From Salinilacihabitans rarus (GTDB taxonomy: Archaea; Halobacteriota; Halobacteria; Halobacteriales; Natrialbaceae), in NCBI RefSeq assembly GCF_024296665.1, contig NZ_CP100762.1, positions 2,790,001 through 2,854,000 on the forward strand: a DNA stretch of 64,000 nt, read 5' to 3'. The notes below the pieces were generated by a model that was not told the origin of the DNA, did no database searches, and was given only the letters and a program-made list of their open reading frames with translations. Within the stretch, counting starts at the first letter, position 1; each line of letters begins with the position of its first letter. Below are positions 24,564 through 41,453 of the stretch, piece by piece. A program made the translations under genes and the position numbers.

Positions 24564-25022
24564 TCAGTCGGCGCCGGTCGGCGCGGCCTCGTCGACGGCC
24601 TGCCGACTGCGCCAGACCCCCTGGAGGTACGCGCCGGCGAACATGCCGGCGAGCGCCCAGAGGATGGTGACGTTACCGATGCCGAGGCTGGCGTAGGCGG
24701 CGCCCGGGCAGATGCCCGACAGCCCCCAGCCGACGCCGAAGACCGCGCCGCCGATCAGGACGTTGCGGTCGAACGACTTCAGCCGGCGGCTGTAGGCCTT
24801 CCCGGTCAGGGGCGCGGGCTTGCCCAGCCGCGGCATGATCGCGAAGGCGATGCCGGTGACGATCGCCGCGCCGAACATGACGAACAACAGCCCGAAGTCG
24901 GTGAACTGGAGGAAGTCCAGTACGACCTCGGGGCGGGCCATGTGGCTGAAGCCGAGGCCGAACCCGAAGATCAGGCCGCCGACGAGGATCAGCGGCATGA
25001 ACAGGGGGTGGCGGTCGCTCAT
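24564..25022 (-). CDS. YeeE/YedE family sulfur transport protein, half A
   Basis: 152 residues with four to five membrane helices. The family motif GWGLSGICPGAAYASLG carries the Cys that in YeeE contacts thiosulfate. It is one of two half-length units: the next gene encodes the partner, and together they match one full-length YeeE/YedE. The gene begins two bases before the stop of its partner ends, so they are co-translated. It probably imports thiosulfate or another sulfane sulfur. Confidence 0.9.
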   Translation of the reverse strand: MSDRHPLFMPLILVGGLIFGFGLGFSHMARPEVVLDFLQFTDFGLLFVMFGAAIVTGIAFAIMPRLGKPAPLTGKAYSRRLKSFDRNVLIGGAVFGVGWGLSGICPGAAYASLGIGNVTILWALAGMFAGAYLQGVWRSRQAVDEAAPTGAD

Positions 25023-25023
25023 G

Positions 25024-25515
25024 CTACGGACTCACCCCCAGCGCGGCGACCAGTTGCGCGGTCACGATCGCGACCGTCAGGAACGTGATCACGCCGACGA
25101 TCGACGTCTTCGACGCGGAGCCGACCCCGCAGACGCCGTGACCCGACGTACAGCCCTTGCCGATGCGGGTGCCGATCCCGACGAAGAGGCCGCCGAGCAG
25201 CAGCCGCCAGGGCTGGACGTCGGTCGTCCACGCGCCGCCCTGCCAGAAGACGGCGTAGACCGCCGCTCCGAGGACGATCCCCACCGAGAAGACGACACGC
25301 CAGTCCCGCGAGGCGCGGTACCGCTGGAACCGCGACTGGTCGGAGACGTACGACAGCGTCGACTCGAGGAACGTGCTGGCGCCGGCGATGATCCCGGTCC
25401 CGAGGTAGATGACCGCCGCGCCGAGGCCGACCAGCAGCCCCCCTACGGCGTACCGATAGATGCCGTTAGGGAACGGCTGATCGACGAGCGCGAGCGGGAC
25501 GATCTCGGCTACCAT
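25024..25515 (-). CDS. YeeE/YedE family sulfur transport protein, half B
   Basis: 163 residues with four membrane helices. The motif GKGCTSGHGVCGVGSASKTS carries two Cys and is the YeeE signature. It lies 11 bp after the rhodanese-MBL gene and directly before half A. In bacterial YeeE, conserved Cys residues in each half pass thiosulfate through the membrane. The split into two proteins is normal for this group and is not a frameshift, since both parts have their own start codon. Confidence 0.9.
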   Translation of the reverse strand: MVAEIVPLALVDQPFPNGIYRYAVGGLLVGLGAAVIYLGTGIIAGASTFLESTLSYVSDQSRFQRYRASRDWRVVFSVGIVLGAAVYAVFWQGGAWTTDVQPWRLLLGGLFVGIGTRIGKGCTSGHGVCGVGSASKTSIVGVITFLTVAIVTAQLVAALGVSP

Positions 25516-25526
25516 TTGCAGTCCGA

Positions 25527-26732
25527 TCAGTCACCCGTCAGGGCGTCCTGGCTGGCTGCGCAGTTGTTCGGGCCGAGTTCGAGGGTGAACGCTTCCTCCT
25601 CGTCGTCGACGTCCTGCTGGCCGAGGTTCGTCGGGATGATCTCCTCGTAGTTGGCCGGCCGCGGCGGCATGTCCGAGAGGATCAGCTCGACGAAATCGTC
25701 CTCGTCCATCGTCAGCGCGTCCATCTCCTCCTCTAGCTGGCCGATCGGCGCGGTGTAGGTGCCGTCGTCGGCGGCCTCGGCCGCGTCGCTGAAGTGCGCG
25801 CCGCCGATCAGGGTCTCGTCGGGCAGGGTGAGCACGCGCTCCTGGAGCGACTCGTAGAGCTGGCGCGCGGCGTCGGGTGCGCCCTCGTCGCCCTCTTCGA
25901 GGTCGGGGCGGGCGACGCTCTCGGTGAACAGGCCGTCGCCGGTCGCCAGCAGTTCGCCGTCGATCAGGTAGGAGGTCATCCCGGAGGTGTGACCGGGCGT
26001 GTAGACCGTCTCGATCGTCGCGTCGCCGACCGCGAACTCGTCGCCGTCGTCCGCGAGGGTCACGTCGTCGGCGTAGGTGACGCCGCGGTCGACCGACGCC
26101 TCGGGGATGACGCCTTCGACGCCCTCGGCGTCGAGGTCGCGGACGCCCGAGAGGTGGTCGGCGTGGATGTGCGTGTCGATGGCGTAGGTCAGGTCGACGC
26201 CGAGTTCCTCGGCGTCTTCGAGGTAGCGGTCGGTGAACGCTCGCAGGGGGTCGATCACCGCGGCCTCGTCGCCGTCGACGAGCAGGTACGCGAGACAGCC
26301 GCTGGAGGGGCGCTGGTACTGGTAGAGCGTGCCGGCGCCGTCGTAGCGGCCGACCTCGACGCGCTCGTAGATCGAGGCCCAGCCGTTCATGCCCTCCTCG
26401 AGGTGGTGTACGTCGTAGTCGCGCTCGGCGAGCGCGCCGGCGACGTACTCGCTGGCGCCGCCTTTCGCACACAGCACCGTGACCTCGCGGTCGTCGGGGA
26501 TCTCGGCGAGGACGTCGTCGTCGATCTCGTCCTCGAGGAACTCGAAGTACGGGACGTTGATCGACTCGACTGTCTCGCCCTCGATGCGCCACTCGTCGTA
26601 GTCCGACGTCATCCGCGTATCGAGGATCGTGACGTCCTCTCCCTCATCAATACGGTTTTTAAGCTCTTCGGGAGCGACCGATTCGACGGGAACATCCGGA
26701 GTCGGGAAGTCCATGTCGTCCATGTTGTGCAT
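25527..26732 (-). CDS. rhodanese - metallo-beta-lactamase fusion (persulfide dioxygenase-like)
   Basis: 401 residues. An N-terminal rhodanese domain (about 14-125) has the active-site Cys88 in TVLCAKGGAS. A beta-lactamase fold follows (about 130-360) with the metal-binding THIHADHLSG (His188, His190, Asp192, His193) and the later HTSGMT and GDGLF strands. Such proteins oxidise glutathione- or other low-molecular-weight persulfides to sulfite. The domain order is opposite to CstB-type enzymes, where the rhodanese is C-terminal. A CATAAG box about 25 bp upstream supports the ATG at 26732 as a leaderless start. It heads the YedE operon. Confidence 0.92.
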   Translation of the reverse strand: MHNMDDMDFPTPDVPVESVAPEELKNRIDEGEDVTILDTRMTSDYDEWRIEGETVESINVPYFEFLEDEIDDDVLAEIPDDREVTVLCAKGGASEYVAGALAERDYDVHHLEEGMNGWASIYERVEVGRYDGAGTLYQYQRPSSGCLAYLLVDGDEAAVIDPLRAFTDRYLEDAEELGVDLTYAIDTHIHADHLSGVRDLDAEGVEGVIPEASVDRGVTYADDVTLADDGDEFAVGDATIETVYTPGHTSGMTSYLIDGELLATGDGLFTESVARPDLEEGDEGAPDAARQLYESLQERVLTLPDETLIGGAHFSDAAEAADDGTYTAPIGQLEEEMDALTMDEDDFVELILSDMPPRPANYEEIIPTNLGQQDVDDEEEAFTLELGPNNCAASQDALTGD

Positions 26733-26782
26733 CCGGGTGTACTGGACGGACCCACATAAGAGTTTGCATAGTATTTCCTTGA

Positions 26783-26794
26783 TTACGCAATACT
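26783..26794 (-). promoter_or_regulatory. ATTGTGC-related operator upstream of the persulfide dioxygenase gene
   Basis: The coding strand reads AGTATTGCGTAA, a variant of the ATTGTGC element found at trxA and TauE. It lies about 25 bp above the CATAAG box at 26755-26760. A second related segment, ATACTATGCAAAC (about 26763-26775), lies between the two. Confidence 0.4.
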
Positions 26795-26930
26795 AACGAT
26801 CGGCCATGACGGAGCGACCGCGCTCGAACTCGGCGCTATCACACGATCTTTGGCGTACACGCGAACTAGTAGAACTGTACGGCTGTTCGGTCCACCTGCA
26901 AGAACCGACATTCTTTTATTGGATGCACCG

Positions 26931-26939
26931 TTATTGTGC
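26931..26939 (+). promoter_or_regulatory. ATTGTGC element at the tusA promoter
   Basis: TTATTGTGC lies just below the likely TATA box TTTTATT (26914-26920), so it would overlap the transcription start of the tusA-dsrE operon. Its half-site is the same as in the other sulfur promoters. Being below the TATA box would suit repression. Confidence 0.45.
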
Positions 26940-26973
26940 GGTAGCTCCAATACAGAGCAACCACGAACCAACT

Positions 26974-27219
26974 ATGAGCACGGAATTCAACGTCACGGAG
27001 ACGCTCGACGTGAAAGGCGCATCGTGTCCGATGCCGGTCGTGAAGACGAAGAACGCGATCGACGACCTCGGCGAGGGCGACGTCCTCGAGGTCCTGGCGA
27101 CCGACTCGGGCAGCATGAGCGACATCCAGGGGTGGGCCGACGGTACCCCCGGCGTCAGCCTCCTCGATCAGGTCGAGGACGGCGACGTCTACAGACACTA
27201 CGTCGAGAAGACCGAGTGA
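26974..27219 (+). CDS. TusA family sulfurtransferase
   Basis: 81 residues with the TusA signature LDVKGASCPMPVVKTKNAI, whose Cys18 in the CPMP motif accepts persulfide sulfur. TusA proteins carry sulfur between donors (rhodaneses, DsrE) and acceptors in thiolation and cofactor assembly. The start at 26974 gives the standard TusA length. The gene is divergent from the persulfide dioxygenase operon and 1 bp before the DsrE-like gene. Confidence 0.94.
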   Translation: MSTEFNVTETLDVKGASCPMPVVKTKNAIDDLGEGDVLEVLATDSGSMSDIQGWADGTPGVSLLDQVEDGDVYRHYVEKTE

Positions 27220-27220
27220 A

Positions 27221-27802
27221 ATGAGCACGGAGACGGACGAGTCCGGCGGGGAACCCGAGGCGCTCGACGAGGACGCGCTCCGCGCGCGCGTCGAGGAACT
27301 CGACGACCGGCTGGCGGAACTCGAAGCGGCAACGGGCGACGAGCAGAAGAAGATGACCATCGTCGCCACGAAGGGGAGTTTCGACATGGCCTACCCGCCG
27401 CTGATCCTCGCGAGTACGGCCGCCGCCTTCGGCTGGGAGGTCGTGGTCTTCCACACCTTCTGGGGGCTCGACATCCTCCACGAGGAGAAGTCGAAGAACC
27501 TCAAGCTGAGCGCCGTCGGCAACCCGAACATGCCGATGCCGAACGCGCTCGCGGCCCTGCCGGGGATGGACTCGATGGCGACGAAGATGATGCAAAAGCG
27601 CATCGACGAGAACGGCACCGCGACGATCGAGGAGCTGATCGAACTCTCGCTCGAAAGCGGCGTCGACCTGCAGGCCTGCCAGATGACCATCGAGCTGATG
27701 GAGTACGACGAGGACGACTTCTACGACGGCGTCACCACCGGCGTAGGCGCGGCGACCGCGCTCCAGCACATGGCCGAATCCGACGTCCAGTTGCTGGTCT
27801 GA
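27221..27802 (+). CDS. DsrE/DsrF/DrsH-like protein
   Basis: 193 residues. The N-terminal 35 residues form a charged coiled coil (LRARVEELDDRLAELEAA). The DsrE-like domain then runs to the end, with KMTIVATKGSFDMAYPPLILAS, a loop with several Met, and ESGVDLQACQMTIELM, whose Cys is the probable sulfur-carrying residue. It likely receives or gives sulfur to TusA, the gene just upstream. The coiled-coil part suggests oligomer formation. Confidence 0.9.
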   Translation: MSTETDESGGEPEALDEDALRARVEELDDRLAELEAATGDEQKKMTIVATKGSFDMAYPPLILASTAAAFGWEVVVFHTFWGLDILHEEKSKNLKLSAVGNPNMPMPNALAALPGMDSMATKMMQKRIDENGTATIEELIELSLESGVDLQACQMTIELMEYDEDDFYDGVTTGVGAATALQHMAESDVQLLV

Positions 27803-27922: not shown

Positions 27923-28558
27923 TCACGCCTCCAGGACGTGATCCAGTAACTTCGCCTGGGCGGTCGCGAGGTGTTCTCTGAACGTCGCCGACGAGATTTC
28001 GAGTTCGGCGGCGACCTGCGCGGCGTTGGCCGAGCGCGGGTGCGCGAAGTACCCCATCTCGTGGGCGGTGTGGAGGACCTGTCGTTGCCGGGCGGTCAGG
28101 CCGCTTCCGTCGAGGACGAGCGGACCGTCGTCGCTCCGGTCGGGACCCGATCGGGTCAGCCGCCGGATCGCCACGTCGTCGAACGCCCGATCGAGTTCGC
28201 TCACGACGTCGCGGACCTCGTCGACGTCGCTCGCGTAGAACGAGAGCACGAGCGCGCCGTCGACGGCGTGGACGTCCCACACCGGGTGGCCCGTCTCCTC
28301 GACGACCTCGCAGACGCACCCCTGGCGGGCCTCGCGAGCGTACTGGTAGACGGTCCGCGAGTCGTACGAGAACGCCTCCTCGAACTCGCGGGCGGTGACC
28401 TCGGCGTCGGTGGCGAACTCCTCGATCACCCGCCCGGAGCGGTCGGCGGGCGCGCTCCGGGCGACGTCCGTGACTCGCGCGCCGTCCGTCGTCAGGGGGG
28501 CGAGCTGGCAGTGTTCGGGGCTTCCGACGTACACCTCCACCCGGATCCTCGACGCCAT
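27923..28558 (-). CDS. NarO-like bat-type regulator with CxCx7H motif
   Basis: 211 residues. The C-terminal HTH (about 150-208: LTARQRQVLHTAHEMGYFAHPRS, then VAAELEISSATFREHL) is of the bacterio-opsin activator type. The N-terminal part carries Cys17, Cys81, Cys83 and His91, arranged C-x63-C-x-C-x7-H. The Haloferax anaerobic regulator NarO is described with C-xn-C-x-C-x7-C, so only the last ligand differs. The gene is divergent from the nitrate reductase operon, which is its likely target. A CTTTATGC box about 28 bp upstream supports the ATG at 28558. It may hold an oxygen-sensitive Fe-S cluster. Confidence 0.88.
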   Translation of the reverse strand: MASRIRVEVYVGSPEHCQLAPLTTDGARVTDVARSAPADRSGRVIEEFATDAEVTAREFEEAFSYDSRTVYQYAREARQGCVCEVVEETGHPVWDVHAVDGALVLSFYASDVDEVRDVVSELDRAFDDVAIRRLTRSGPDRSDDGPLVLDGSGLTARQRQVLHTAHEMGYFAHPRSANAAQVAAELEISSATFREHLATAQAKLLDHVLEA

Positions 28559-28754: not shown

Positions 28755-29351
28755 ATGAGGCGGGAACTCCTCGTTATCGGCGCGGTAGTCGCCAGCGTAC
28801 TGCTGCCGATGTGGTTCGTCGCGATGCAGGGCGAACCGCCGTCGGAGGAGATCGCGATCGATCGGAGCGTCTCCGACATCCGGCCGCTCGACGGGTTCGT
28901 CGACGCGCCGAACAAGCTCTCGCCGAGTCAGGTCGGCACGATCGTCTGGATCGCGCTGTTCGCGCTCGTCGGCGTCCTCGCCGCCGCCCACCGGTTCATG
29001 AACTACGCCGTCCGCCCGAGCGCCGAGCGGACCGAGGGGGCGGCGGAGACCGACGGCGGTCGGACCGGCACGTCCTGGCTCGCGACGGACGAACGCTGGG
29101 TCGTCGAGTACGCCCGCCCCGCCGAACAGGCCGAGGGGCTGATCGCCATGGCCGGGTTGACGATCGTCGCGATCGTCTTCGCCGCGCTGTTCATCGGCGA
29201 GTACCTGACGCTCGCACGCACCCAGTACTTCGGCGTCTACGCCGCCGCGATGTTCCTCGCGCTCGCCGGGTCGACCGTCGCCTACTACGCGTGGTTCATG
29301 CCCCACGTCGAGGTGGCCGAGTACCGCGACCACCGCCGGGGTGAACGATGA
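28755..29351 (+). CDS. membrane protein, first gene of the nar operon (narA position)
   Basis: 198 residues with four membrane helices (about 5-24, 62-80, 127-150 and 158-178) and an outer segment of about 40 residues after the first helix (SDIRPLDGFVDAPNKLSP). It resembles no well-characterised family that I can name. In Haloferax mediterranei the nar operon starts with a membrane gene called narA, before Rieske (narB) and cytochrome b (narC), and the order here is the same. Its stop overlaps the start of the Rieske gene by 4 bp, so it is made with the complex. Confidence 0.72.
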   Translation: MRRELLVIGAVVASVLLPMWFVAMQGEPPSEEIAIDRSVSDIRPLDGFVDAPNKLSPSQVGTIVWIALFALVGVLAAAHRFMNYAVRPSAERTEGAAETDGGRTGTSWLATDERWVVEYARPAEQAEGLIAMAGLTIVAIVFAALFIGEYLTLARTQYFGVYAAAMFLALAGSTVAYYAWFMPHVEVAEYRDHRRGER

Positions 29352-29995
29352 GCGACGACGCCGACGGCTCGCGTCCGGGCTGTCCCGGTGAGTGCGAGGG
29401 GACGTCGGCGCCCCGGCGGCCGTCGCTGTTCACCGACGACCGCGCCGAACTGGGCAGGCGCGACGTCGCGAAGGTGCTCGCGACGATCGGCGGGCTGACC
29501 GCCCTCGGGAGCCTCGCCGTCCCGCTGGCGGGGCTGACGCGCGTGTTCGAGCGCGGCTACAGCGGCCCGATCTACGGCGACGGCGTCGCCCTCGTCGACG
29601 AGGAGGGCGAACCGGTCGACGAGAACGCGCTCGCCGTCGGCGAGCACATGACCGTCTTCCCCGAGCCGCGACCCGGGATCGCCGACGCGCCCACGCTGCT
29701 CGTCCGCTTCGAGGAGGACGCCTACGGCGGCGAGACGAAACTGGAGTTCACCATCGGCGGCTACGCCGCCTACTCGAAGGTCTGTCCGCACGCGGGGTGT
29801 ATGGTCTCCGACCGGGACGACTCGGTCCTCGTCTGCCCGTGTCACTCCGGCAAGTTCGACCCCCTCACGGGCGCCGAGGTGGTCGGCGGCCCGCCGCCGC
29901 GGCCGCTCCCCCAGCTTCCGCTGACGTTCTCGGCGGAGGGCGCGCTGATCGCCGCGGGCGACTTCGACGGGGCCGTCGGCCCCGGTGGTGGGTGA
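29348..29995 (+). CDS. narB: Rieske iron-sulfur protein of the nitrate reductase complex
   Basis: 215 residues. A twin-arginine anchor (GRRDVAKVL, Arg37-38) precedes one helix (about 43-62). The Rieske motif is complete: C146-P-H148 and C163-x2-H166, with the extra Cys151 and Cys165 that form the stabilising disulfide. The N-terminus has a short Cys-containing segment (CPGECEG). It transfers electrons from quinol through the cytochrome b to NarGH. Starts and stops overlap with both neighbours (ATGA and TGATG), which shows translational coupling. Confidence 0.92.
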
Positions 29996-31416
29996 TGGCC
30001 GCCGACGGGCGGTCCGCGACCGGGCGCGTCGTCGACGCCGGCAGACGCGCCTACGGCTGGGTCGACGCCAGGCTGGACCTCGACCGCGACGCGACGCTGC
30101 TCGGAAAGGCGTTCCCCGCCGAGGACTCGTTCCTGCTGGGCGAGGTGGCGCTGTTTTGCTTCCTCGTGCTCGTGCTGTCCGGGATCTTCCTCGGCTTCTT
30201 CTTCGAACCGAGCACGACCGAGGTCGAGTACGAGGGAAGCGTCGACGAGTTCCAGGGCGAGGAGCTTCCGGCCTCCTACGTCAGCGTCCTGAACGTCACC
30301 TACGACGTCCCCTTCGGCATGTTCCTCCGGCGGATACACCACTGGGCGGCGCACTTCTTCGTCGCCTCGCTGGGGTTGCACATGTTGCGGGTGTTCTTCA
30401 CCGGCGCCTACCGCAACCCCCGGGAGCCCAACTGGCTGGTCGGGAGCGGCCTCGCGGTGCTCGCGATGGGCGCCGCCTACACGGGGTACGCGCTGCCCTA
30501 CGACGAGTTCGCCAGCACGGCGACCGGAATCGGGTTCAACGTCGTGCAGTCGATCCCGGTGATCGGGGAGACGTCGGCCGACATCGTCTTCGGCGGACGA
30601 TTCCCGTCGAGCGCGACGATCCCGCGGCTGTACTTCCTGCACGTGCTCGTGATCCCGGCGACGATCGGCGTGCTCCTGGCGGCGCACCTGTGGATCCTCG
30701 TCCGGCAGAAACACACCGAAGCGCCCCGCGACGGCGACGTGACCGGCGGGGACGAACGCGTCGACCGGGACGACGACGGCGTCGTCGTCGGGCTGCCGGC
30801 GTACCCGAACCAGACGGCGGTGAGCGCGGTCGTCTTCTTCCTGACGCTCGCGGCGCTGTCGCTGCTCGCGGGGTTCCTGCCGGTCCACAACGTCGCCGAG
30901 TACGGGCCGAACGACCCCGCCTCGACGCCCGAACTCATCATGCCCGACTGGTTTCTCATGTGGGGGTACGGCTTCCTGAAGCTGATCCCCTCCTGGATGA
31001 GCTTCGACGTCCCGCTGGTCGGCGTACACGTCAGCTCCGAGTTCCTCGGCGGCGTCGTCCTGCCGGGGCTTGTCTTTCTCGCCGTGTTCGTCTGGCCGTT
31101 CGTCGACTACGAGTCGGAGCCGACTCACTTCACCGCCGACCCGCTCGAACGCCCCTGGCAGACCGCGGTCGGGGTCGCGGGCGTCGTCTTCGTGATGATC
31201 GCCTCGCTGGCCGGGATGGACGTGATCCTCGCCGACGTCCTCGGGACGGACTCGACGGCGCTGCACGCGCCGCTGACGGTGGCGCTGTTCGTCGGACCGC
31301 TCGTCGCCGGCGCGATCACCTACTGGACGCTCGGCGGGTTCGGCGAGGAGGGTGGGGGCGGCGACCCGGTAGCGGCCGACGGCGCCGGTGACGAGGAGGT
31401 GACCGGCGGTGAGTGA
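29995..31416 (+). CDS. narC: cytochrome b of the nitrate reductase complex
   Basis: 473 residues from the ATG at 29995. Its N-terminal half has four helices with the heme b ligand pairs: [23 protein letters not shown], and the later [19 protein letters not shown]. The C-terminal half contains the [16 protein letters not shown] segment with quinol-site features, then three more helices. It combines the b6 and subunit IV parts in one chain. With the Rieske protein it forms a quinol-oxidising module for nitrate respiration, in place of NarI. A frame running further upstream is shadow reading of narB. Confidence 0.93.
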
Positions 31417-31645
31417 GGGCGAGCGCCGGGCCGTCGCGCTCTCGCCGCGCGCGTACGGCTGGCTCGACCGGACGACGAAGCTTCTCGGCGTGGCCCTCGT
31501 CGGGGCCGGCCTCGAGGTCGGCGGCGGCACCGCGGGCGGGGTGATCCTCGCGGTCGCGGGCGCTGCAGCCGCGCTCGCGACCGTCTTCGTACAGCGAGAC
31601 GACGAACGGGACCGATCGACCGACGGAGATCCGACGAATGAGTGA
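31409..31645 (+). CDS. small membrane protein between narC and narG
   Basis: 78 residues, GTG start overlapping the end of narC by 8 bp, and its end overlaps narG by 8 bp. One to two helices are present ([14 protein letters not shown] and [19 protein letters not shown]), and the tail is acidic. A small open frame sits at the same position in the Haloferax mediterranei nar operon. It may be a structural or assembly part of the complex. No motif is recognised. Confidence 0.75.
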
Positions 31646-34600
31646 TCGAGAGCACGACACCGAGGAGGCGAACCGCGAGGAAACCGACCGCAGTCGCGCG
31701 ACCGCCGACCGGCGATCGTTCCTGCAGGGGATCGGCGCGAGCGCCGTTCTCGGCGCGACGGGCGGCGCGCTGGCCGACGACCTGTTCGCGATGGAGCGGC
31801 TACAGGTCGTCGACGACCCCATCGGCAACTACCCCTACCGCGAGTGGGAGGACCTCTACCGCGAGAAGTGGGAGTGGGACGACGTCGCGAGGAGCACCCA
31901 CAGCGTCAACTGCACGGGGTCGTGTTCCTGGGACGTCTACGTCAAGAACGGACAGGTGTGGCGCGAGGAGCAGGCCGCCGACTACCCGACGTTCGACGAC
32001 GACCTCCCGAACCCCAACCCGCGTGGCTGTCAGAAAGGCGCCTGCTACACCGACTACGTCAACGCCGACCACCGCATCACCACCCCGCTGCGCCGAACCG
32101 GCGAGCGCGGCGAGGGCAAGTGGGAACAGCTCTCGTGGGACGAGGCGCTGACCGAAATCGCCGAGAAGGTCGTCGACGAGGTCGAGGCGGGCAACTACGA
32201 CGCCATCTCGGGGTTCACGCCGATTCCGGCGATGAGCCCGGTCTCCTTTGCCTCCGGCTCGCGGCTGCTCAACCTGCTGGGTGGGGTCTCACACTCGTTT
32301 TACGACTGGTACTCGGACCTGCCGCCGGGGCAGCCGATCACGTGGGGCGTCCAGACCGACAACGCCGAGAGCGCCGACTGGTACAACGCCGACTACCTGA
32401 TCGCCTGGGGCTCGAACGTCAACGTCACCCGGATCCCAGACGCCAAGTACTTCCTCGACGCGGGGTACAACGGCACCAAACGGGTCGGGATCTTCACCGA
32501 CTACTCGCAGACGGCCATCCACTGCGACGAGTGGCTCTCGCCGGACCCGGGCACCGACTCGCTGCTGGCGCTCGGGATGGCCCGGACCATCGTCGAGGAG
32601 GACCTCTACGACGAGGCCCACCTCAAAGAACAGACCGACATGCCACTGCTCGTCCGCGAGGACACCGGGAAGTTCCTCCGGGTCGCCGACGTGCCGGGGC
32701 TGGGCGGGGACGTCGACCGTCCCGAACACGCGATGGTCATGCGCGACGGGGGCGGCGACCTCCGCGTCGCGCCGGCGTCGCTTGGCGACCGCGACGGCAA
32801 GAACGACCCCGACGCGAGCATCGAACTCGGCTTCGACCCGCGACTCGACGTCGACGGGACGGCCGAGACGGGGGACGGAAGCGTCGCGGTGCGGTCGGTC
32901 TGGAACCGCCTGCGCGAGGAACTCGACGAGTACACGCCGTCGTACGTCCACGAGGAGACCGGCGTCGGCGAGCGGACCTACCAGCGGGTCGCCCGGGAGT
33001 TCGCGACGGTCGACCGGGCGAAGATCATCCACGGCAAGGGCGTCAACGACTGGTACCACAACGACCTCGGCAACCGCGCCATCCAACTGCTCGTCACGCT
33101 GACCGGCAATCTGGGTCGTCAGGGGACCGGCCTCGACCACTACGTCGGACAGGAGAAGATCTGGACCTACGAGGGGTGGCAGAAGCTCACGTTCCCGACC
33201 GGGGACGTCCGCGGCGTCGCGACCGCGCTGTGGACCTACTACCACGCCGGCATCCTCGACCGGGTGGAGACCGGAACCGCCGAGCGGATCGAGGAGGCGA
33301 TCGATCGCGGGTGGATGCCGCTGTACCCCGAGGAGCGCGAGGACGGCTCGCGACCCGACCCGAGCGTCCTGTTCGTCTGGCGTGGCAACTACTTCAACCA
33401 GTCCAAAGGCGGCGCGGCGATCCAGGAGAACCTGTGGCCGAAACTCGACCTCGTGGTCGACGTCAACTTCCGGATGGACTCCTCGGCGCTGTACGCCGAC
33501 ATCGTGCTCCCGACGGCGAGCCACTACGAGAAGTACGACCTGTCGATGACGGACATGCACACGTACGTCCACCCGTTTACCCCCGCCGTCGAACCGCTCG
33601 GCGACGCGAAGTCCGACTGGCAGATCTTCCGCGACCTCGCGGCGAAGATTCAGGAACTCGCCCGCGAGCGCGGCGTCGAACCCGTCCCCGATCGGTCGTT
33701 CGACCGCGAGATCGATCCGACCACCGTCTACGACGACTTCGTCCGCGACTGGGAGACCGGCGAGGAGGGCGCTCTGGAGGACGACCGCGCGGCCTGCGAG
33801 TTCATTCTCGAACACTCCGAGGAGACCAACCCGGAGGGAAGCGACGAGCGGATCACCTTCGAGGACACCGACGAGCAGCCCCGGCGGTTCCTGGCGGCGA
33901 GCGACCACTGGACCTCGCCGATCGAGGACGGCGAGGCGTACACCCCCTGGAAGCGGTTCGTTCGGGGGAAACGCCCCTGGCCGACGTACACGGGTCGCCA
34001 GCAGTACTACATCGACCACGACTGGTTCCTCGACTTCGGCGAGGAGTTGCCGACGTTCAAGGCGCCGCCCGAGCCACAGGACCCCGAGGAGTATCCGCTG
34101 CGGTACAACACGCCCCACGGCCGGTGGTCGATCCACTCGACGTGGCGCGACAACGAGACGATGCTCAGGCTCCAGCGGGGCGAGCCGCTGGTCTACCTCC
34201 ACCCCGAGGACGCCGCCGAGCGCGGCATCGAGAACGGCGACACGGTCAGAGTCTACAACGGCTTCGACTCGGTCGAGTTGCAGGCGAAGATCTACCCGAG
34301 CAGCGAACCGGGCGTCGCGCGGATGTACTTCGCCTGGGAACGGTTCCAGTTCCCGAACCGCGGCAACTTCAACACGCTCGTCGGCATGTACCTGAAGCCG
34401 ACGCAACTGATCCAGTACCCGGAGGAGACCGGCGAACACCTCTCGTTCGTCCCCAACTACTGGGGGCCGACCGGGGTGAACAGCGACGCCCGCGTCGAGG
34501 TCGAGTTCGTCGAGGCCGGCCCGCGCCGCGAGGAGGGCGGCGAGGACGTGCCGGACGGGCTGTCGGTCCCCGAGGCCGCCGCGGAGGACGCCGGCGACGG

Positions 34601-34682
34601 TAACGAGACGGACGCCGGAAACCGGACGGACGCCGACGGCGCCGACAACGCGACCGAGGGCGAGGGAGGTGAGGGGACGTGA
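31638..34682 (+). CDS. narG: respiratory nitrate reductase catalytic subunit (molybdopterin)
   Basis: 1014 residues. Twin-arginine export signal DRRSFLQGIGA (Arg25-26) places the active site outside, as in archaeal pNar. The Fe-S cluster FS0 ligands are His88, Cys92, Cys96 and Cys131 (HSVNCTGSC, and GCQKGAC). The Mo-ligand region VQTDNAESADWYNADYLIAWGSN contains the Asp typical of NarG. A C-terminal 45-residue acidic tail is rich in Asp, Glu and Gly. It reduces nitrate to nitrite with electrons from NarH. The gene overlaps both neighbours. Confidence 0.97.
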   Translation: MSDREHDTEEANREETDRSRATADRRSFLQGIGASAVLGATGGALADDLFAMERLQVVDDPIGNYPYREWEDLYREKWEWDDVARSTHSVNCTGSCSWDVYVKNGQVWREEQAADYPTFDDDLPNPNPRGCQKGACYTDYVNADHRITTPLRRTGERGEGKWEQLSWDEALTEIAEKVVDEVEAGNYDAISGFTPIPAMSPVSFASGSRLLNLLGGVSHSFYDWYSDLPPGQPITWGVQTDNAESADWYNADYLIAWGSNVNVTRIPDAKYFLDAGYNGTKRVGIFTDYSQTAIHCDEWLSPDPGTDSLLALGMARTIVEEDLYDEAHLKEQTDMPLLVREDTGKFLRVADVPGLGGDVDRPEHAMVMRDGGGDLRVAPASLGDRDGKNDPDASIELGFDPRLDVDGTAETGDGSVAVRSVWNRLREELDEYTPSYVHEETGVGERTYQRVAREFATVDRAKIIHGKGVNDWYHNDLGNRAIQLLVTLTGNLGRQGTGLDHYVGQEKIWTYEGWQKLTFPTGDVRGVATALWTYYHAGILDRVETGTAERIEEAIDRGWMPLYPEEREDGSRPDPSVLFVWRGNYFNQSKGGAAIQENLWPKLDLVVDVNFRMDSSALYADIVLPTASHYEKYDLSMTDMHTYVHPFTPAVEPLGDAKSDWQIFRDLAAKIQELARERGVEPVPDRSFDREIDPTTVYDDFVRDWETGEEGALEDDRAACEFILEHSEETNPEGSDERITFEDTDEQPRRFLAASDHWTSPIEDGEAYTPWKRFVRGKRPWPTYTGRQQYYIDHDWFLDFGEELPTFKAPPEPQDPEEYPLRYNTPHGRWSIHSTWRDNETMLRLQRGEPLVYLHPEDAAERGIENGDTVRVYNGFDSVELQAKIYPSSEPGVARMYFAWERFQFPNRGNFNTLVGMYLKPTQLIQYPEETGEHLSFVPNYWGPTGVNSDARVEVEFVEAGPRREEGGEDVPDGLSVPEAAAEDAGDGNETDAGNRTDADGADNATEGEGGEGT

Positions 34683-35764
34683 GTTCCGACGGCGACCCCG
34701 CCTTCCAGGTCGACCTCGCCGACGGCATCGACCACCAGGTCGCGATGGTGATGGACCTGAACAAGTGCATCGGCTGTCAGACCTGCACGGTCGCGTGCAA
34801 GACGCTGTGGACCCGCGGGGGCGGCCGCGAGTACATGTACTGGAACAACGTCGAGACCCGACCCGGCGAGGGTTACCCTCGCGACTGGGAGGGCTCCGGC
34901 GGCGGCTGGCAGGGCGACGATCCGGACGGCGAGGGCGGCCAGCCCCCCGAAGAGCGCAGCGTCGGCAACGTCCGGCCCAAGCGCGACTTCGGCGGCGACT
35001 GGGCGTTCAACCACGACTCGGTGTTCTACGACGGAACCGACGAACCGCTGCGCCCGCAGGCCGACCCCGAGTGGGGGCCCAACTGGGACGAGGACGAGGG
35101 CGGCGGCGAGTACCCCAACTCCTACTACTTCTACCTGCCCCGGATCTGCAACCACTGTACGCACCCCTCCTGCGTCGAGGCCTGTCCGCGCTCGGCGCTG
35201 TACAAGCGATCCGAAGACGGCATCGTGCTGGTCGACCAGGAGCGCTGTCGCGGCTACCGCTACTGCGTCGAGGGCTGTCCCTACGACAAGGTCTACTACA
35301 ACGCGATGACCAAGCTGTCGGAGAAGTGCATCTTCTGTTACCCCCGCATCGAGGGGGCGGGTCCCGACGACGAGGTCCACGGCCCCGCCTGCGCGACCGA
35401 GTGTCCGCCACAGCTACGGTTCGTCGGCTTCCTCGACGACGAGGACGGCCCCATCTACCGGCTCGTCGAGGAGTGGGAGGTCGCCGTGCGCCTCCACCCT
35501 GAGTACCGCACGCAGCCCAACGTGTACTACATCCCGCCGTACGCCCCGCCCCAGCACAACGACGACGGCGAGACCGTCGACGTCGACCGCATCCCCCGCG
35601 AGTACCTCCGCGAACTGTTCGGCCCGGCGGTCAACGACGCGCTCGACACCATCGAACGCGAGCGCGAGACCGTCATGCAGGGCGGCGAGAGCGAACTGAT
35701 GGAGCTGCTGATCCACACCGACTACGCCGAGCAGTACCGCCTCGAGGTGTTCGACGGTGACTGA
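34679..35764 (+). CDS. narH: nitrate reductase electron-transfer subunit (four Fe-S clusters)
   Basis: 361 residues, GTG start overlapping narG. Four cysteine groups are present: CIGCQTCTVAC, CNHCTHPSCVEACP, CRGYRYCVEGCP and CIFC...CATEC. In the third group a Tyr takes the position of one Cys, so that cluster would be [3Fe-4S], as in other NarH where a Trp sits there. No export signal is present, so it is carried across with NarG. It links the heme subunit to the Mo centre. Confidence 0.96.
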   Translation: MSSDGDPAFQVDLADGIDHQVAMVMDLNKCIGCQTCTVACKTLWTRGGGREYMYWNNVETRPGEGYPRDWEGSGGGWQGDDPDGEGGQPPEERSVGNVRPKRDFGGDWAFNHDSVFYDGTDEPLRPQADPEWGPNWDEDEGGGEYPNSYYFYLPRICNHCTHPSCVEACPRSALYKRSEDGIVLVDQERCRGYRYCVEGCPYDKVYYNAMTKLSEKCIFCYPRIEGAGPDDEVHGPACATECPPQLRFVGFLDDEDGPIYRLVEEWEVAVRLHPEYRTQPNVYYIPPYAPPQHNDDGETVDVDRIPREYLRELFGPAVNDALDTIERERETVMQGGESELMELLIHTDYAEQYRLEVFDGD

Positions 35765-36584
35765 CGGCGGGCGCGCCCGCGGGTTCGCCCCCCTCGTGGT
35801 CGCCGTGGCGGTCTGTCTCGTCGCGTTCACCGTGCTCGTCCCGACGCTCGGCGAGGGGCGCCCGGCAAACGAGATCGCGCTCGTCGACCTCTCGGACGAC
35901 CGCGACCCCGCCTCGCCGACCGCCGAGGCGTGGGACGACGTTCCGACGACGGACGTGCCGATGGCGAGCGCGCAGGCGGACGTCCCGAACGCCGAGGACG
36001 TGACCGTCGAGTCGGTCGCCGTCGAGGCCGCCAGCACCGACGACCGGCTGTACCTCCGGCTGTCGTGGAACGACTCGACCGTCGACGACGAGAGCGGCGC
36101 GCCCGAGGCGTTCGCGGACGCGGTCGCGGTCCAGTTGCCCACCGACGGCACCGAACAGCCCCCGATCACGATGGGCGGCGACGACAACACCGTGAACGTC
36201 TGGTACTGGAACGCCCGGGCGGGCGGACAGGAACTGCTCGCCGGCGGCCCGGGGACGACGACGGCGCTGGGGAACTCGACGGTCGAGACCGAGGCGGTCC
36301 GCGACGGCGACCGCTGGCGCGTCGTCTTCGTGCGCGACCGCACGGTCGACGGGGCCGACAACCGGACGGCGATCGGCGGCGACCGCGACGTCGACGTCTC
36401 GCTTGCGGCCTGGAACGGGTCGAACGCCGAGCGAGCCGGCCAGAAGAGCGTCAGCGAGTGGTACTACCTCCCGTTCGGGCCGGGCCCGGCGGGGCCGCCA
36501 TACGAGGCGATCCTCTGGACGGTCGCCGGCCTCGCCGTCGCCGTCGTGATCGCCGTGACCATCCTCGGCGTCAGGAGGACCTGA
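35757..36584 (+). CDS. ethylbenzene dehydrogenase-type heme b subunit (gamma-like)
   Basis: 275 residues. A helix near residue 10-30 and another at the C-terminus (PPYEAILWTVAGLAVAVVIAVTIL) anchor it, with a beta-sandwich domain between. The Met in PPITMGGDDNTVNVWYW and the Lys in AGQKSVSEW are at positions that serve as heme ligands in EbdC and related gamma subunits. It corresponds to the gene between narH and narJ in haloarchaeal nar operons. It may carry electrons from the Rieske protein to NarH. Confidence 0.82.
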   Translation: MTDGGRARGFAPLVVAVAVCLVAFTVLVPTLGEGRPANEIALVDLSDDRDPASPTAEAWDDVPTTDVPMASAQADVPNAEDVTVESVAVEAASTDDRLYLRLSWNDSTVDDESGAPEAFADAVAVQLPTDGTEQPPITMGGDDNTVNVWYWNARAGGQELLAGGPGTTTALGNSTVETEAVRDGDRWRVVFVRDRTVDGADNRTAIGGDRDVDVSLAAWNGSNAERAGQKSVSEWYYLPFGPGPAGPPYEAILWTVAGLAVAVVIAVTILGVRRT

Positions 36585-36586
36585 CC

Positions 36587-37312
36587 GTGAGCGAACGCAC
36601 GGACCGGGACGTCGGCGGGTTCGAGGTGGACGAGCCAGCGGCCGCCCGCGGTGCCCTCTACGCGCTGCTGGCACGCGGGTTCGAGGCGCCGGGCGAGCGG
36701 TTCGCCGCGGCGGCCGCCGACGGGACGCTCGCGGCGACGTGCGAGCGCCTGCTCGCGGCGTCCGCCCTCGACGTCGACGCCCCGACCCTCGACACCGCGG
36801 ACGACCGCCGGACGCTCCAGGCACGCTACAACGACCTGTTCGTCACCGGCTACGTCGAGTACGAGGACCGCACCGACGGCACCCTCGACGCGACCGGGCC
36901 GGCCGTCTCGCTGTACGAGTCGTCCTACCGGTCCGACGTCGCCTGGACCGACGTCAACCTCGACCTCGCGCGGGCGTACGAGTACTTCGGGCTCGCCGTC
37001 GACGAGTCGCGCCGGGAGCACCACGACCACCTCCGACTCCAACTGGAGTTCGCGGGGTACCTCGCCCGGCGGGAGGCGGCCGTCTCGGCGGACGCCGCCG
37101 GCGCGAGGCTCGACCTGCACGACCGCCACCTGCGGTACGTCGCCGCGGGCGTGGCCGAGCGCCTCGACGCCGAGCCGGGAACGGGCCTGTACGGCGACCT
37201 CGGACGGCTCCTGGACCGGTTCACGGCGGCCGATCGGGCGGACCTCGTCGAGCGCCTCGACGACGGCGGCGTGGGCGCGGGCCGCCCCGACGCCGGGGGT
37301 GGCGACCGGTGA
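36587..37312 (+). CDS. narJ: nitrate reductase chaperone (NarJ/TorD family)
   Basis: 241 residues from a GTG at 36587. All-helical TorD-like fold with the family segments RGALYALLARGFEAP and LQARYNDLFVTGYVEYEDR, and a central SLYESSYRSD motif. The family assists Mo cofactor insertion and proofreads the Tat signal of NarG before export. The stop overlaps the next gene by 4 bp. Confidence 0.88.
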   Translation: MSERTDRDVGGFEVDEPAAARGALYALLARGFEAPGERFAAAAADGTLAATCERLLAASALDVDAPTLDTADDRRTLQARYNDLFVTGYVEYEDRTDGTLDATGPAVSLYESSYRSDVAWTDVNLDLARAYEYFGLAVDESRREHHDHLRLQLEFAGYLARREAAVSADAAGARLDLHDRHLRYVAAGVAERLDAEPGTGLYGDLGRLLDRFTAADRADLVERLDDGGVGAGRPDAGGGDR

Positions 37313-38196
37313 GTTCCCGCTCGCTCGGCGCGGACGCGGCCGCGTTCGTCCGGCTGGTCGAACGCGCCGGCGACCGCGCGCGCACGGCCCTCCCCCTCTC
37401 CGTCCGGGAGGGCGCGGGGGCGCTCGCGCTCGCGACCGTCGGCGCGGCGCTCCTCGTTCGGCTGGTCGTCGAGGCGCCGGTCGACGGCGCCCCGGTCGTC
37501 GGCCTCCGGAGGCCGGCCGCCGCGGCCGCCCTCGCGGGGACGGCGGTCGCCGCGCTCGGGCTGGCGACCGTCGCACGACGCGACGCGGGCGCGTTCGGCC
37601 TCGTCCTCGTCGCCGTCTTCGCCGGGGCGGCCGCGGCCGACGACGCGGCCGTCGTGCCGGCGACGGGCGCGCTCCTCCTTGGCGCCGCCGCGGTCGTCGC
37701 CCCCGCCCTCGAACGGCGGCCGAACGACCTCGCGGCCCCCGCCGTCGCCGCCCTCGCGCTCGTCGCGCTCGTCGCGTCGGCACTCGCGTTCCTGGGGATC
37801 GAACCGCCGTCGCTGCGCCCGCTCGGCTCGCGCGCGTGGCTGCTCGCGCTCGCGGCCCTCGGCGGCGTCGCGCTCGAACGCCGGGACGGCGCCGCCGTCG
37901 CCCTCGGGCTGGTCGCCGCCGCGGGCGTCGCGTGGGCGGGAGCCGCCGCGCCCTTCGCGTTCGGGGCGGCGGCCCTGATCGCCGGCGGCGTCGTCGGCGC
38001 GCCGGGGGTCGCGGTCGCGCTCGCGGTCGGCGGCGCGGTCGCCGGCGCCGTCGCGTTCGCACGGGCGGGCGAGCGCGCCCGTTCGCTCGGCGCCGGCGTC
38101 CTGCTCGCGACCGGCGTCCCGGTCGGCATCGCGGCGGGGCTCGCCGCCGTCGTCGGCCTCGCGCTCGTCCGCGGACCCGGAGGTGAGCGGTCGTGA
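37309..38196 (+). CDS. polytopic membrane protein in the nar operon, unknown function
   Basis: 295 residues, GTG start overlapping narJ. It is very rich in Ala, Leu and Val, and nearly all of the protein is hydrophobic helices, about eight to nine, joined by short Arg-containing loops. No cofactor-binding residues or motifs were recognised. Its place between narJ and the HEAT gene makes an assembly or transport role possible. A nitrate/nitrite transporter would need recognisable MFS motifs, which I do not see. Confidence 0.72.
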   Translation: MSSRSLGADAAAFVRLVERAGDRARTALPLSVREGAGALALATVGAALLVRLVVEAPVDGAPVVGLRRPAAAAALAGTAVAALGLATVARRDAGAFGLVLVAVFAGAAAADDAAVVPATGALLLGAAAVVAPALERRPNDLAAPAVAALALVALVASALAFLGIEPPSLRPLGSRAWLLALAALGGVALERRDGAAVALGLVAAAGVAWAGAAAPFAFGAAALIAGGVVGAPGVAVALAVGGAVAGAVAFARAGERARSLGAGVLLATGVPVGIAAGLAAVVGLALVRGPGGERS

Positions 38197-39032
38197 AAGA
38201 CCCCGACGAGGCCACCGACGGGCCGCCGGACCCGCAACTCGACCCCGAGCGCAGCCCCGGCTTCGGGGCGGATCCGGACGGACTCGAGAGCATCGAGGTG
38301 AGCCGGCCGGACGTGACCATCGGCGAGGCGACGCCGCGGGAACTCACCGCGAGCGACACCGAACCGCTCGCCGACGAGCCGACCGAGCGCGTCCTCGCGC
38401 TGCTCTCGGGCGACGACCCGGTCGAGCGGCGGCGGGCCGCGCTCGCGCTCGCGGACGGCCCCGACGACGACGTCGTCGACGAGGCGCTCGCGCGGGCGGT
38501 CGCGTCGGACGCCGACGCGGACGTCCGCCAGTTCGCGGTCGAGGCCCTCGGCAAACGCGGCGGCGAGGTCGCGTCGGCGGCGGCACGTTCCGCGCTCGCG
38601 GACGGGAACCCGTGGGTGCGCGCGGAGGCCGTCGTCGCGCTCGACCGGATCGACCGCGAGGCCAACGCCGACGCCGTCGACCGCGCGCTCGGGGACGACC
38701 ACCACGCCGTCCGGCGCAACGCGGCTATCTCCGCGTTCAAGCGCCGCGGCGAGGGCGCCATCGAGGTGTTGCTCGAACAGGCCGACGACGAGAGCGAACG
38801 CGTCCGCGAGTGGGCGGCGCACCTGCTGGCGGGCGTCGACGACGACCGGGCGCGCGAGAAACTCCGCGCGCTGGCCGCCGACGAGGCCGAAGCCGAGGTC
38901 GTCCGCGCGACGGCGGCGCGCTCGCTGGCGGCCGACCCCGCGCGCTTCCGCCGGACGTTCCGCGGCGCGCTCTCGGACCGTCGGCGGACGATGCGCGGCG
39001 AAGACGTGCTCAACCGAACGCCGGACCTGTAA
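38193..39032 (+). CDS. HEAT-repeat protein in the nar operon
   Basis: 279 residues, GTG start overlapping the previous gene. The first 65 residues are acidic and low in structure. From about residue 70 to 265 there are five to six HEAT units of about 31 residues, such as ADADVRQFAVEALGKRGGE and NPWVRAEAVVALDRIDREA. HEAT solenoids bind partner proteins. Here it likely acts in assembly or maturation of the nitrate reductase. It ends 2 bp before the Mrp-like gene. Confidence 0.85.
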   Translation: MKDPDEATDGPPDPQLDPERSPGFGADPDGLESIEVSRPDVTIGEATPRELTASDTEPLADEPTERVLALLSGDDPVERRRAALALADGPDDDVVDEALARAVASDADADVRQFAVEALGKRGGEVASAAARSALADGNPWVRAEAVVALDRIDREANADAVDRALGDDHHAVRRNAAISAFKRRGEGAIEVLLEQADDESERVREWAAHLLAGVDDDRAREKLRALAADEAEAEVVRATAARSLAADPARFRRTFRGALSDRRRTMRGEDVLNRTPDL

Positions 39033-39034
39033 CC

Positions 39035-40330
39035 GTGACACGTGACGCACACACCCCGAACGCGAGTGGCGCCGACGAACCGGACGGCGACGTTCGAGAG
39101 CGCGTCGAGGCGGCGCTCCGGCGGGTCGTCGATCCGGACGTGGGGACGAACGTGATCGAAGCCGGACTGGTCGAACGGATCCGCGTCGACCGCGAGGCGG
39201 ACGCGGCGCCGGCGGTGACCGTCGAGGTGGCCCTCGACGGGTTCGACGCTCGCGACGGCCGGTCGGTGATGGACGCGATGCTCCGGTCGGTCCGCCACGA
39301 GGGGATCGAACGGGTCCGCGTCGAGCCCGCCGCGGCACCCCCGAGCGAGGGACGGACGGCGGGCGTCGCCGGCTTCGACGCCGTGATCGCCGTCGCGAGC
39401 GCGAAAGGCGGCGTCGGCAAGTCGACCGTGGCGACGCACCTCGCCTGCGGGCTGGCCGCCGACCGCTCGGTCGCCCTGTTCGACGCCGACGTCCACGGCC
39501 CGAACGCGCCGTCGCTGCTGGGCGCGACCGGACCCGTCCGCTCGGACGACGAGGGCCACCCGCTGGCGATCGACGCCGGCGGCCTCGAGATCATGAGCGT
39601 CGGCCTGATGGAGGAGGGGGCGCCGCTGGCCTGGCGCGGCGCGATGGTCCACGACGCGGTGACGGAACTGTTCCGCGAGACGGCCTGGGAGGCGAGCGAC
39701 GTGCTCGTGATCGACCTGCCGCCGGGCACCGGCGACGTCGTGTTGACGACGCTCGACGAGGTGCCGGTCGACGGCGTGCTGTTCGTGACCACGCCGTTTC
39801 ACGCCAGCGTCGCCGACACCCGCCGGAGCCTCGCGCTGTTCCGCGAGAACGGCGTGTCGGTGATCGGCACCGTGCGGAACATGGCCTACAGCGAGTGTTC
39901 CCACTGCGGGGAGCGCGAACCGCTGTTCGAGCCGACGGACGCCGGAGGAGACGACTCGATCGACGCGGCGACGGTCGCCGAACTGCCGTTCGACCGCGCC
40001 CTCCAGCGGACCGCCGAGCCCGGCGTCGCGCCCGACGCCGTCGAACCGGTGGTCGAGGCGGTCGCGGACCTGCTCGGGCCGGCGGCCGTCCCCGACGCGG
40101 CCGTCGACATCAGGGGGCTGTCCCCGGGCGAACGGCGGGAACGGGTTCGAACCGCCTTCGAGTCGACCGCGCCGGGTGACCCGTTCGTCCTCGCGAGCGA
40201 CCGCGACCCGTCGCCGGTACGCGGGTTCCTCGCGGACGTCGCGGGGGTCGACGAGCGCGACGGCTTCCCGAGGTTCGACGTCGAGCGCGCCTCGCTCGGG
40301 ACGTGGCTGCTCCGGACGGTCAGGCCCTGA
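39035..40330 (+). CDS. MIP18 - Mrp/ApbC P-loop - DUF2249 fusion protein
   Basis: 431 residues from a GTG at 39035. Residues about 18-100 are a MIP18 (DUF59) domain (VVDPDVGTNVIEAGLV). Residues about 113-345 are an Mrp/ApbC ATPase with deviant Walker A SAKGGVGKST (122-131) and the CxxC pair Cys288/Cys291 (ECSHCGE) used to carry Fe-S clusters. Residues about 356-431 match DUF2249 (DIRGLSPGERRERV, then APGDPFVLASDRDPSPV, then W-L-L-R at the end). It probably loads Fe-S clusters into the nitrate reductase. It closes the operon. Confidence 0.88.
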   Translation: MTRDAHTPNASGADEPDGDVRERVEAALRRVVDPDVGTNVIEAGLVERIRVDREADAAPAVTVEVALDGFDARDGRSVMDAMLRSVRHEGIERVRVEPAAAPPSEGRTAGVAGFDAVIAVASAKGGVGKSTVATHLACGLAADRSVALFDADVHGPNAPSLLGATGPVRSDDEGHPLAIDAGGLEIMSVGLMEEGAPLAWRGAMVHDAVTELFRETAWEASDVLVIDLPPGTGDVVLTTLDEVPVDGVLFVTTPFHASVADTRRSLALFRENGVSVIGTVRNMAYSECSHCGEREPLFEPTDAGGDDSIDAATVAELPFDRALQRTAEPGVAPDAVEPVVEAVADLLGPAAVPDAAVDIRGLSPGERRERVRTAFESTAPGDPFVLASDRDPSPVRGFLADVAGVDERDGFPRFDVERASLGTWLLRTVRP

Positions 40331-40336
40331 CGCCGA

Positions 40337-41185
40337 TCAGCTCATCCGGGACGGCGGCACGATCAGCACGTTGCCGTTCGCCCGGGCGACGACCTGCTCG
40401 GAGACGCTGCCGATCAGCAGGCGGCGCAGTCGGCTGTGACCGCGCGAGCCGAGCAGGATCACCGTCGGATCGACCGCCGCCTCGGTCGCGAGGATCTCCT
40501 CGGCGGGCTTGCCCTCGCGCACCTGCGTCGTCGTCTCGATCCCCCACTCTTCGAGGTCGGCCGCGAGGTCGTCGAGGCGCGTCTCGGGGTCCTCGACGGC
40601 CGCGTCCGTCCGCCGCTGCTCGGGGCCGGCGACGTGGAGCAGCGTCGCCTCCTGGGTCGCATCCTTGAGGTGGCGGAACTGCTCGAACGCCCGTTCGGCG
40701 TTCTCCGAGAAGTCCGTCGCGTACAGCACGCGCTGGAAGAGGTGCTCGCGGACGACCTCGTGGTCGCCGTCGTCCTCGGCGATGCGCTCGATCAGCAACG
40801 GCGCGACGGTCGTCCGCGCGATGTTGCGCGCGGTGCTGCCGATCAGCCGCCGTTCGAGCGGGCTCTGCCCGCGCGAGCCGACGATCACGAGGTCGGCGCG
40901 GATTCGCTCGGCGAGGCCGTTGATCCGCCGGTGGGGCGTGCCGCGGACGACGTGCGTCTCGACGTCGAAGCCCGCCTCCTCGAAGAGTCGGCGCTGGGCC
41001 GCGAGCGCGCGCTCGCGTTGCTCGTCGAAGTTGATGCCCGGCATCCCGTAGTGGACGTTCGCGCTCAGGACGGTGATCAGGTGTACCTCGTCGATCCCGA
41101 TGCGTTCGAGGCACTCGAGGCAGGTCCGCGAGGAAATCGCCGTCTCGCTCGCCTCGGAGAGGTCGGTCGCGAATATGGCCCTCAT
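40337..41185 (-). CDS. tandem-domain universal stress protein
   Basis: 282 residues from the ATG at 41185, made of two Usp domains (about 1-140 and 147-282). The ATP-binding signatures are VGSRGQSPLERRLIGSTARN in domain one and LGSRGHSRLRRLLIGSVSEQ in domain two. It is convergent with the Mrp fusion gene. The promoter has a AATATTCAT element about 30 bp upstream. Two-domain Usp proteins bind ATP as a pseudo-dimer and respond to stress. An earlier in-frame ATG (41212) adds nine residues that overlap the promoter and is less likely. Confidence 0.93.
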   Translation of the reverse strand: MRAIFATDLSEASETAISSRTCLECLERIGIDEVHLITVLSANVHYGMPGINFDEQRERALAAQRRLFEEAGFDVETHVVRGTPHRRINGLAERIRADLVIVGSRGQSPLERRLIGSTARNIARTTVAPLLIERIAEDDGDHEVVREHLFQRVLYATDFSENAERAFEQFRHLKDATQEATLLHVAGPEQRRTDAAVEDPETRLDDLAADLEEWGIETTTQVREGKPAEEILATEAAVDPTVILLGSRGHSRLRRLLIGSVSEQVVARANGNVLIVPPSRMS

Positions 41186-41453
41186 AGTCGGAGGAAGGGG
41201 CCGACGACACATGAATATTGCGCGTAATTCCCACTATCGCACACATCGTGTCGCCGGCCCGCAGTTCCTTTCCGCGCGATTCGGTTCCGACGGGACGGAA
41301 CTCGCTGGCGTCCCCGCCGCTCGAAGGTCGGGGTAGGGCTCCCCGTCGGCGTCGACGGCCGGCGTACGACCGCCCAACGGCTATCTCGCCTGCCGTGTAA
41401 CCCCCTCCGACGCGGCGCCGTCCGCGGATCCGCGTGCGGCCCGGTGAACGCCC

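Follow-up and report, generated by a model that had tools for sequence, protein, structure and literature searches.

Background

Exported Fe-S molybdoenzymes need completion in the cytoplasm before Tat export, and chaperones of the NarJ/TorD type are known. Relatives of Mrp and Nbp35 are Fe-S carriers, among them the plastid and mitochondrial protein HCF101, which has the domain order FSCA(DUF59)-Mrp-DUF971 and serves photosystem I, and Ind1, which serves complex I (PMC7980591). The domain of unknown function DUF2249 has been studied in Thermus, where DrpA consists of DUF2249 and DrpB of DUF1858 plus two DUF2249 domains, and both genes were deleted in a 2018 study (PMC6282519). The drpAB double mutant still made NarG with activity of about a tenth, the expression of nar and dnr was altered in DrpA/DrpB mutants, and DUF2249 was proposed as a nitrate sensor with an additional effect on maturation, DrpA being periplasmic (PMC6282519). 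In Haloferax mediterranei, according to a 2024 report, the nar operon encodes a P-loop iron-sulfur carrier with a DUF2249 domain, E6P09_17415, which was induced under denitrification with a log2FC of 3.60; the same report places stand-alone DUF2249 genes near nar, nir and nor (PMC11218638). The fusion and a functional link were thus on record already (PMC11218638, PMC6282519), and the suggestion of the original prediction that the gene described here could supply a first functional clue for DUF2249 was not supported. A client-dedicated Fe-S factor inside the operon of an exported molybdoenzyme was not found described in the literature on these systems.

Domain organization of the fusion protein

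The window, which is the whole stretch of 64,000 nucleotides that was analysed, contains an open frame on the plus strand (39035..40330; 431 aa) which starts with a GTG codon 2 bp past the stop of a HEAT-repeat gene and joins MIP18, Mrp and DUF2249 domains. These three domains, with the Walker A and CxxC motifs, had been called from the sequence by the original prediction and all three were above their Pfam cut-offs. The MIP18 domain (FeS_assembly_P, DUF59, PF01883; 39095..39229 +, residues 21-65) passed only just, with 26.4 bits against a curated cut-off of 23.5, while the Mrp/NUBPL P-loop NTPase domain (PF10609; 39380..40027 +, residues 116-331) reached 205.3 bits for NUBPL/ParA against 27.1. 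Both the deviant Walker A KGGVGKST (39404..39427 +, residues 124-131) and the CxxC motif (CSHC; 39896..39907 +, residues 288-291), presumed to provide Fe-S ligands, are intact, and the Mrp domain would be a putative [4Fe-4S] carrier and ATPase. Like most of the fusions, this one has SA before the Walker A, where housekeeping Mrp has SG. The C-terminal DUF2249 domain (40103..40327 +, residues 357-431) was confirmed by a profile search with a significant match to PF10006 over residues 357-419 (41.1 bits, E 1.6e-10, cut-off 29.5). Pfam gave no DUF971 match in the fusion, which has DUF2249 instead, the TusA profile PF01206 was absent among its Pfam matches, and the equivalog cut-off for MrpORP (NF041136) was not reached (177 versus 450 bits).

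The nar operon around the fusion

The placement of the gene in a nitrate reductase operon was borne out by matches to TIGR03479, TIGR03478, TIGR03477 and the chaperone model TIGR03482, all above cut-off. On the plus strand, the operon begins with a NarA-like small membrane protein (28755..29351) and continues with a Rieske protein (29348..29995), a cytochrome b subunit (29992..31416), the NarG catalytic alpha subunit (31638..34682; TIGR03479, with a Tat-like RRSFL motif), the NarH iron-sulfur beta subunit (34679..35764; TIGR03478), a heme-b gamma subunit (35757..36584; TIGR03477), a NarJ/TorD-type chaperone (36587..37312; TIGR03482, PF02613), a membrane protein without Pfam family (37309..38196) and the HEAT-repeat protein (38193..39032) directly upstream of the fusion. 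A divergent HTH regulator of the DmsR/NarO type (27923..28558, minus strand; DmsR_N, HTH_10) precedes the operon, and the gene downstream (40337-41212, minus strand) is convergent, so that the fusion closes the operon here. The solved structure nearest to NarG was that of PcrA, a perchlorate reductase. The window genome (haloarchaeal, 3.62 Mb contig) encodes two ordinary Mrp proteins in addition to the fusion, which therefore looks dedicated.

Just upstream of nar is a sulfur-trafficking cluster (24564-27802) of two YeeE-type Sulf_transp genes, a rhodanese-metallo-beta-lactamase gene, a TusA gene (about 26974-27219, plus strand) and a DsrE-like gene.

Recurrence with nar among haloarchaea

A survey of 243 Halobacteriales genomes identified 51 NarH loci. 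In 41 of them the fusion lies on the strand of NarH, at a distance of 3.2-4.2 kb downstream. The genome-level association between NarH and the fusion gave a Fisher p of 3e-28, with genomes counted without kinship correction. Dozens of genomes show the same three domains and gene order, so that the fusion is neither a chance product nor an assembly artefact. This linkage, together with the conserved block of TorD/NarJ, membrane protein, HEAT and fusion genes, supports by context the proposed role in maturing anaerobic Fe-S/Mo enzymes. The same gene order, with annotation, was present in Haloferax larsenii and Halomicrobium urmianum. Genome G212 carries a truncated orphan copy of the fusion (L106:8360-9094), which matches from residue 168 only, its N-terminal part being either absent or in another frame; a MobA-like gene comes next.

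Three of the ten NarH loci without the fusion were set aside, two at contig ends (G046, where the contig stops just past HEAT, and G165, where the locus is divided between contigs) and one with a broken gene (G111). The other seven nar operons lacked the fusion though the stretch was covered, and these were four loci in genus g51, each with two stand-alone DUF2249 genes nearby, and those of G012, G155 and L089, with neither fusion nor DUF2249 nearby. No DUF2249 match was present anywhere in the genomes of G012 and G155, which have a nar operon all the same, and the fusion is therefore not indispensable. L089 (G000:C1:3324000-3343000) is a second nar operon of the window genome, with NarG 70% and NarH 66% identical to the first, in which HEAT is kept, the Mrp-DUF2249 gene is absent and a DUF998 gene and an integrase follow. 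Outside the haloarchaea, no fusion was seen at E 1e-58 in a phylum sample of 393 genomes, and among the plasmid matches listed no non-haloarchaeal fusion covered DUF2249.

Fusions beside other molybdoenzymes

Twenty-seven more strong fusion matches in the 243 genomes were located away from canonical NarH. Twenty such loci were inspected for gene context, and 19 adjoined an operon, here termed type B, that encodes distinct alpha and beta subunits and, as far as the sequence of each locus reaches, also has gamma and HEAT genes and a gene for a TorD-type chaperone. The HEAT gene keeps its place next to the fusion in nar and type B operons alike. In type C operons, found in Natrialbaceae and others, the ATPase gene immediately precedes that of a larger alpha subunit. 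In comparisons with solved structures the B alpha (L053) scored 424 bits with the anammox NxrA (7b04) and 267 with PcrA, and the C alpha (L007) matched NxrA at 756 bits along almost its entire length, against 173 bits for the window NarG. The B and C enzymes are type II DMSO-reductase-like molybdoenzymes and, as judged by similarity only, NXR-like.

The loci L053-L071 on the one hand and L007-L021 and L073-L080 on the other hold two type II molybdoenzyme families, whose alphas (one each tested) match NxrA far better than NarG/PcrA. A 212-aa protein without Pfam family is encoded between HEAT and fusion in one B-type operon (L053:7296-7934).

The MIP18 domain scored 40.5 and 43.9 bits in type B relatives and fell under the Pfam cut-off in the type C relative L007 (15.8 bits), which also gave no Pfam match to DUF2249. 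A profile built without type C proteins located DUF2249 at the C-terminal end of all type C proteins, at scores that ranged between clear and marginal, and had no match in housekeeping Mrp; compared profile against profile, the type C C-terminal end and DUF2249 matched at 96% and 94%.

The fusion therefore recurs with three type II molybdoenzyme families, and the proposed tie to nitrate reductase stands as linkage, in 41 of the 51 NarH loci, and fails as exclusivity, since the same family also accompanies two further kinds of type II molybdoenzyme operon. A nar-specific role was ruled out by the fusions adjoining NxrA-like operons. The recurrence suggests that the protein probably helps to fit metal cofactors before export and does not serve nitrate reductase alone.

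Predicted fold and subfamilies of DUF2249

The DUF2249 domain modelled alone gave a pLDDT of 93.7, and its top matches by Foldseek and VIA-align were TusA-family chains. The VIA Z scores were 9.1 and 8.9 for the YeeD part of 8k1r/8j4c, 7.8 for the SirA-like 3hz7 and 7.7 for the TusA of 3lvj, an IscS-TusA complex, where values below 8 can be common and only the two best rows listed exceed 8. Smr, IF3-C and Alba domains, which have the same general arrangement, ranked below the TusA-family chains, and an IF3-like/TusA-like fold is confidently predicted for DUF2249. Sequence-profile comparison between TusA and DUF2249 was weak (48% over 35 columns), no solved structure matched DUF2249 by sequence, and the cysteine at the TusA sulfur-carrier position (CPxP) was present in no DUF2249 sequence examined. 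The match to the IscS-TusA complex and the true TusA and DsrE-like genes 1.0-1.8 kb upstream of the window nar operon are consistent with DUF2249 docking a cysteine desulfurase or sulfur relay through a TusA-like contact with IscS/SufS, which would make the Mrp part a scaffold at the sulfur source and not at the client. The missing TusA cysteine argues against this explanation, which we regard as rather improbable, and docking to the client enzyme or its assembly partners is preferred here.

The nar-type DUF2249 set and stand-alone DUF2249 proteins were related at 98.6% by hhalign. Stand-alone proteins have two conserved histidines (in RH and in D-H-D/E-P) that are missing from the nar-type fusion domain, where the residue before D/E-P was Arg in 34/34 domains compared with His in 25/28 stand-alones; the two-His feature is a trait of the stand-alone, DrpA-like subfamily and not a Pfam criterion. 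These differences bear on whether DUF2249 could be a sensory or regulatory module for nitrate, NO or oxygen, by which the fusion would couple Fe-S supply to the respiratory state in the manner proposed for Thermus DrpA/DrpB. The shifts in nar and dnr expression in the Thermus mutants favor such a module, as do the stand-alone genes near nar, nir and nor, which were also seen near nar in our haloarchaeal loci. The loss of the histidines makes a His-based sensor site unlikely in the fusion, and in the drpAB mutant activity is impaired as well, although NarG is present (PMC6282519); a sensory role was accordingly given little probability compared with client docking.

A partner-specific His/Arg signature of DUF2249 was also considered and is weakened by the proteins of L070-L072, which carry a nar-like SDRDP and group with the nar fusions, while L070 and L071 adjoin a B-type enzyme. 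The window genome has three consecutive stand-alone DUF2249 genes (L090:8152-9036; G000:C1 about 158150-159040), and about four tandem DUF2249-like units per frame were seen in several haloarchaea (L151, L152).

Phylogeny of the fusion family and the CxxC motif

In a maximum-likelihood phylogeny of 94 P-loop domains, read as unrooted, the 17 housekeeping Mrps included were set apart from the fusions at 100/100. Groups C1 and C2 formed clades and A (nar-type) and B nearly so, and the clades tracked operon type with few exceptions, including three proteins from B-type settings that fell inside the nar group. All 77 fusions had S[A/T/S]KGGVGK versus SGKGGVGK in the housekeeping copies. The simplest reading is that one ancient fusion may have diversified along with its enzymes.

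A CxxC or CxC motif was kept in all 60 of the A, B and C2 fusions compared, while CxxC was lost in 17/17 fusions of the C1 clade, which kept Walker A and DUF2249 and still adjoin a molybdoenzyme. Cluster carriage by the CxxC motif is thus not universal, and the loss in C1 leaves room for a chaperone or Mo-cofactor role. The fusion would then be a MinD/ArsA-like chaperone ATPase that acts with TorD/NarJ in cofactor insertion or client folding rather than in Fe-S delivery, its CxxC being vestigial. Such a role would also fit the mobA gene (molybdenum cofactor guanylyltransferase) that comes after the fusion in Haloferax larsenii, as well as the common trait of the three partner enzymes, all of which are type II molybdoenzymes accompanied by a TorD-type or NarJ-like protein. 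We consider it unlikely given the retention of the motif in the other groups, the fusion of MIP18, an Fe-S assembly domain, in types A and B, and the Fe-S carriage by Mrp/Nbp35 relatives (PMC7980591).

Proposed role and comparison with known systems

The reading that we hold to be somewhat probable is that the fusion is a client-dedicated maturation ATPase of the HCF101/Ind1 type for exported type II molybdoenzymes, with DUF2249 as its docking domain. In this reading, the Mrp domain, with its P-loop ATPase and CxxC, would be the carrier of a [4Fe-4S] cluster, MIP18 would help to hand the cluster on, and DUF2249, TusA-like and without the sulfur-carrier cysteine, would dock the ATPase to the client, which may be apo-NarG/NarH or a platform of the chaperone and HEAT protein; a sulfur donor would be the alternative docking target. 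In concert with NarJ/TorD and the HEAT protein, the fusion would finish the Fe-S centres of NarGH, and perhaps its Mo centres, while the enzyme is still cytoplasmic and awaits Tat export. More tentatively, and by analogy, DUF2249-Mrp could be a general maturation module for exported haloarchaeal type II molybdoenzymes (nitrate reductase and two nitrite-oxidoreductase-like families), that is, a small operon-encoded analogue of the CIA machinery (HEAT, MIP18 and Nbp35) in which the cysteine-less TusA-like domain may be the client adaptor and stand-alone DUF2249 proteins may do the same job in trans. Because the fusion tracks three molybdoenzyme families, DUF2249 function becomes testable in the genetically tractable Haloferax.

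Among described proteins, E6P09_17415 of H. mediterranei is very likely the orthologue of the window fusion, judged by its published description, and the available portion of that report has nothing on MIP18, HEAT, fold, mechanism or operons of other molybdoenzymes (PMC11218638). Thermus DrpA/DrpB are likewise DUF2249 proteins with a link to nar, and nitrate reductase is not fully active without them, but they have no Mrp fusion and were proposed as nitrate sensors, with DrpA in the periplasm (PMC6282519). Housekeeping ApbC/Mrp carriers (8zkc, 3kb1, 2ph1) share the P-loop domain, Walker A and CxxC but lack DUF2249, form the separate 100/100 clade and have SG where the fusions have SA/ST before KGGVGK. 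The TusA and YeeD sulfur carriers share the predicted fold of DUF2249, although their catalytic CPxP cysteine is absent from it and sequence similarity is weak. The eukaryotic CIA system (NBP35/CFD1, CIA2/MIP18 and the HEAT protein MMS19) has the same parts list of Mrp, MIP18 and HEAT, a resemblance of parts only. Ind1/NUBPL is also a client-dedicated Fe-S factor of the Mrp family, but is without MIP18 or DUF2249 and has complex I as its client. HCF101 shares the N-terminal MIP18, the Mrp NTPase and an extra C-terminal domain, and its Fe-S client is likewise a dedicated one, photosynthetic or respiratory (PMC7980591), while its extra domain is a DUF971 with CxCxxC instead of DUF2249 and the fusion is archaeal and encoded in the operon of its presumed client. 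Among prokaryotes, the fusion may be the counterpart of HCF101 and Ind1.
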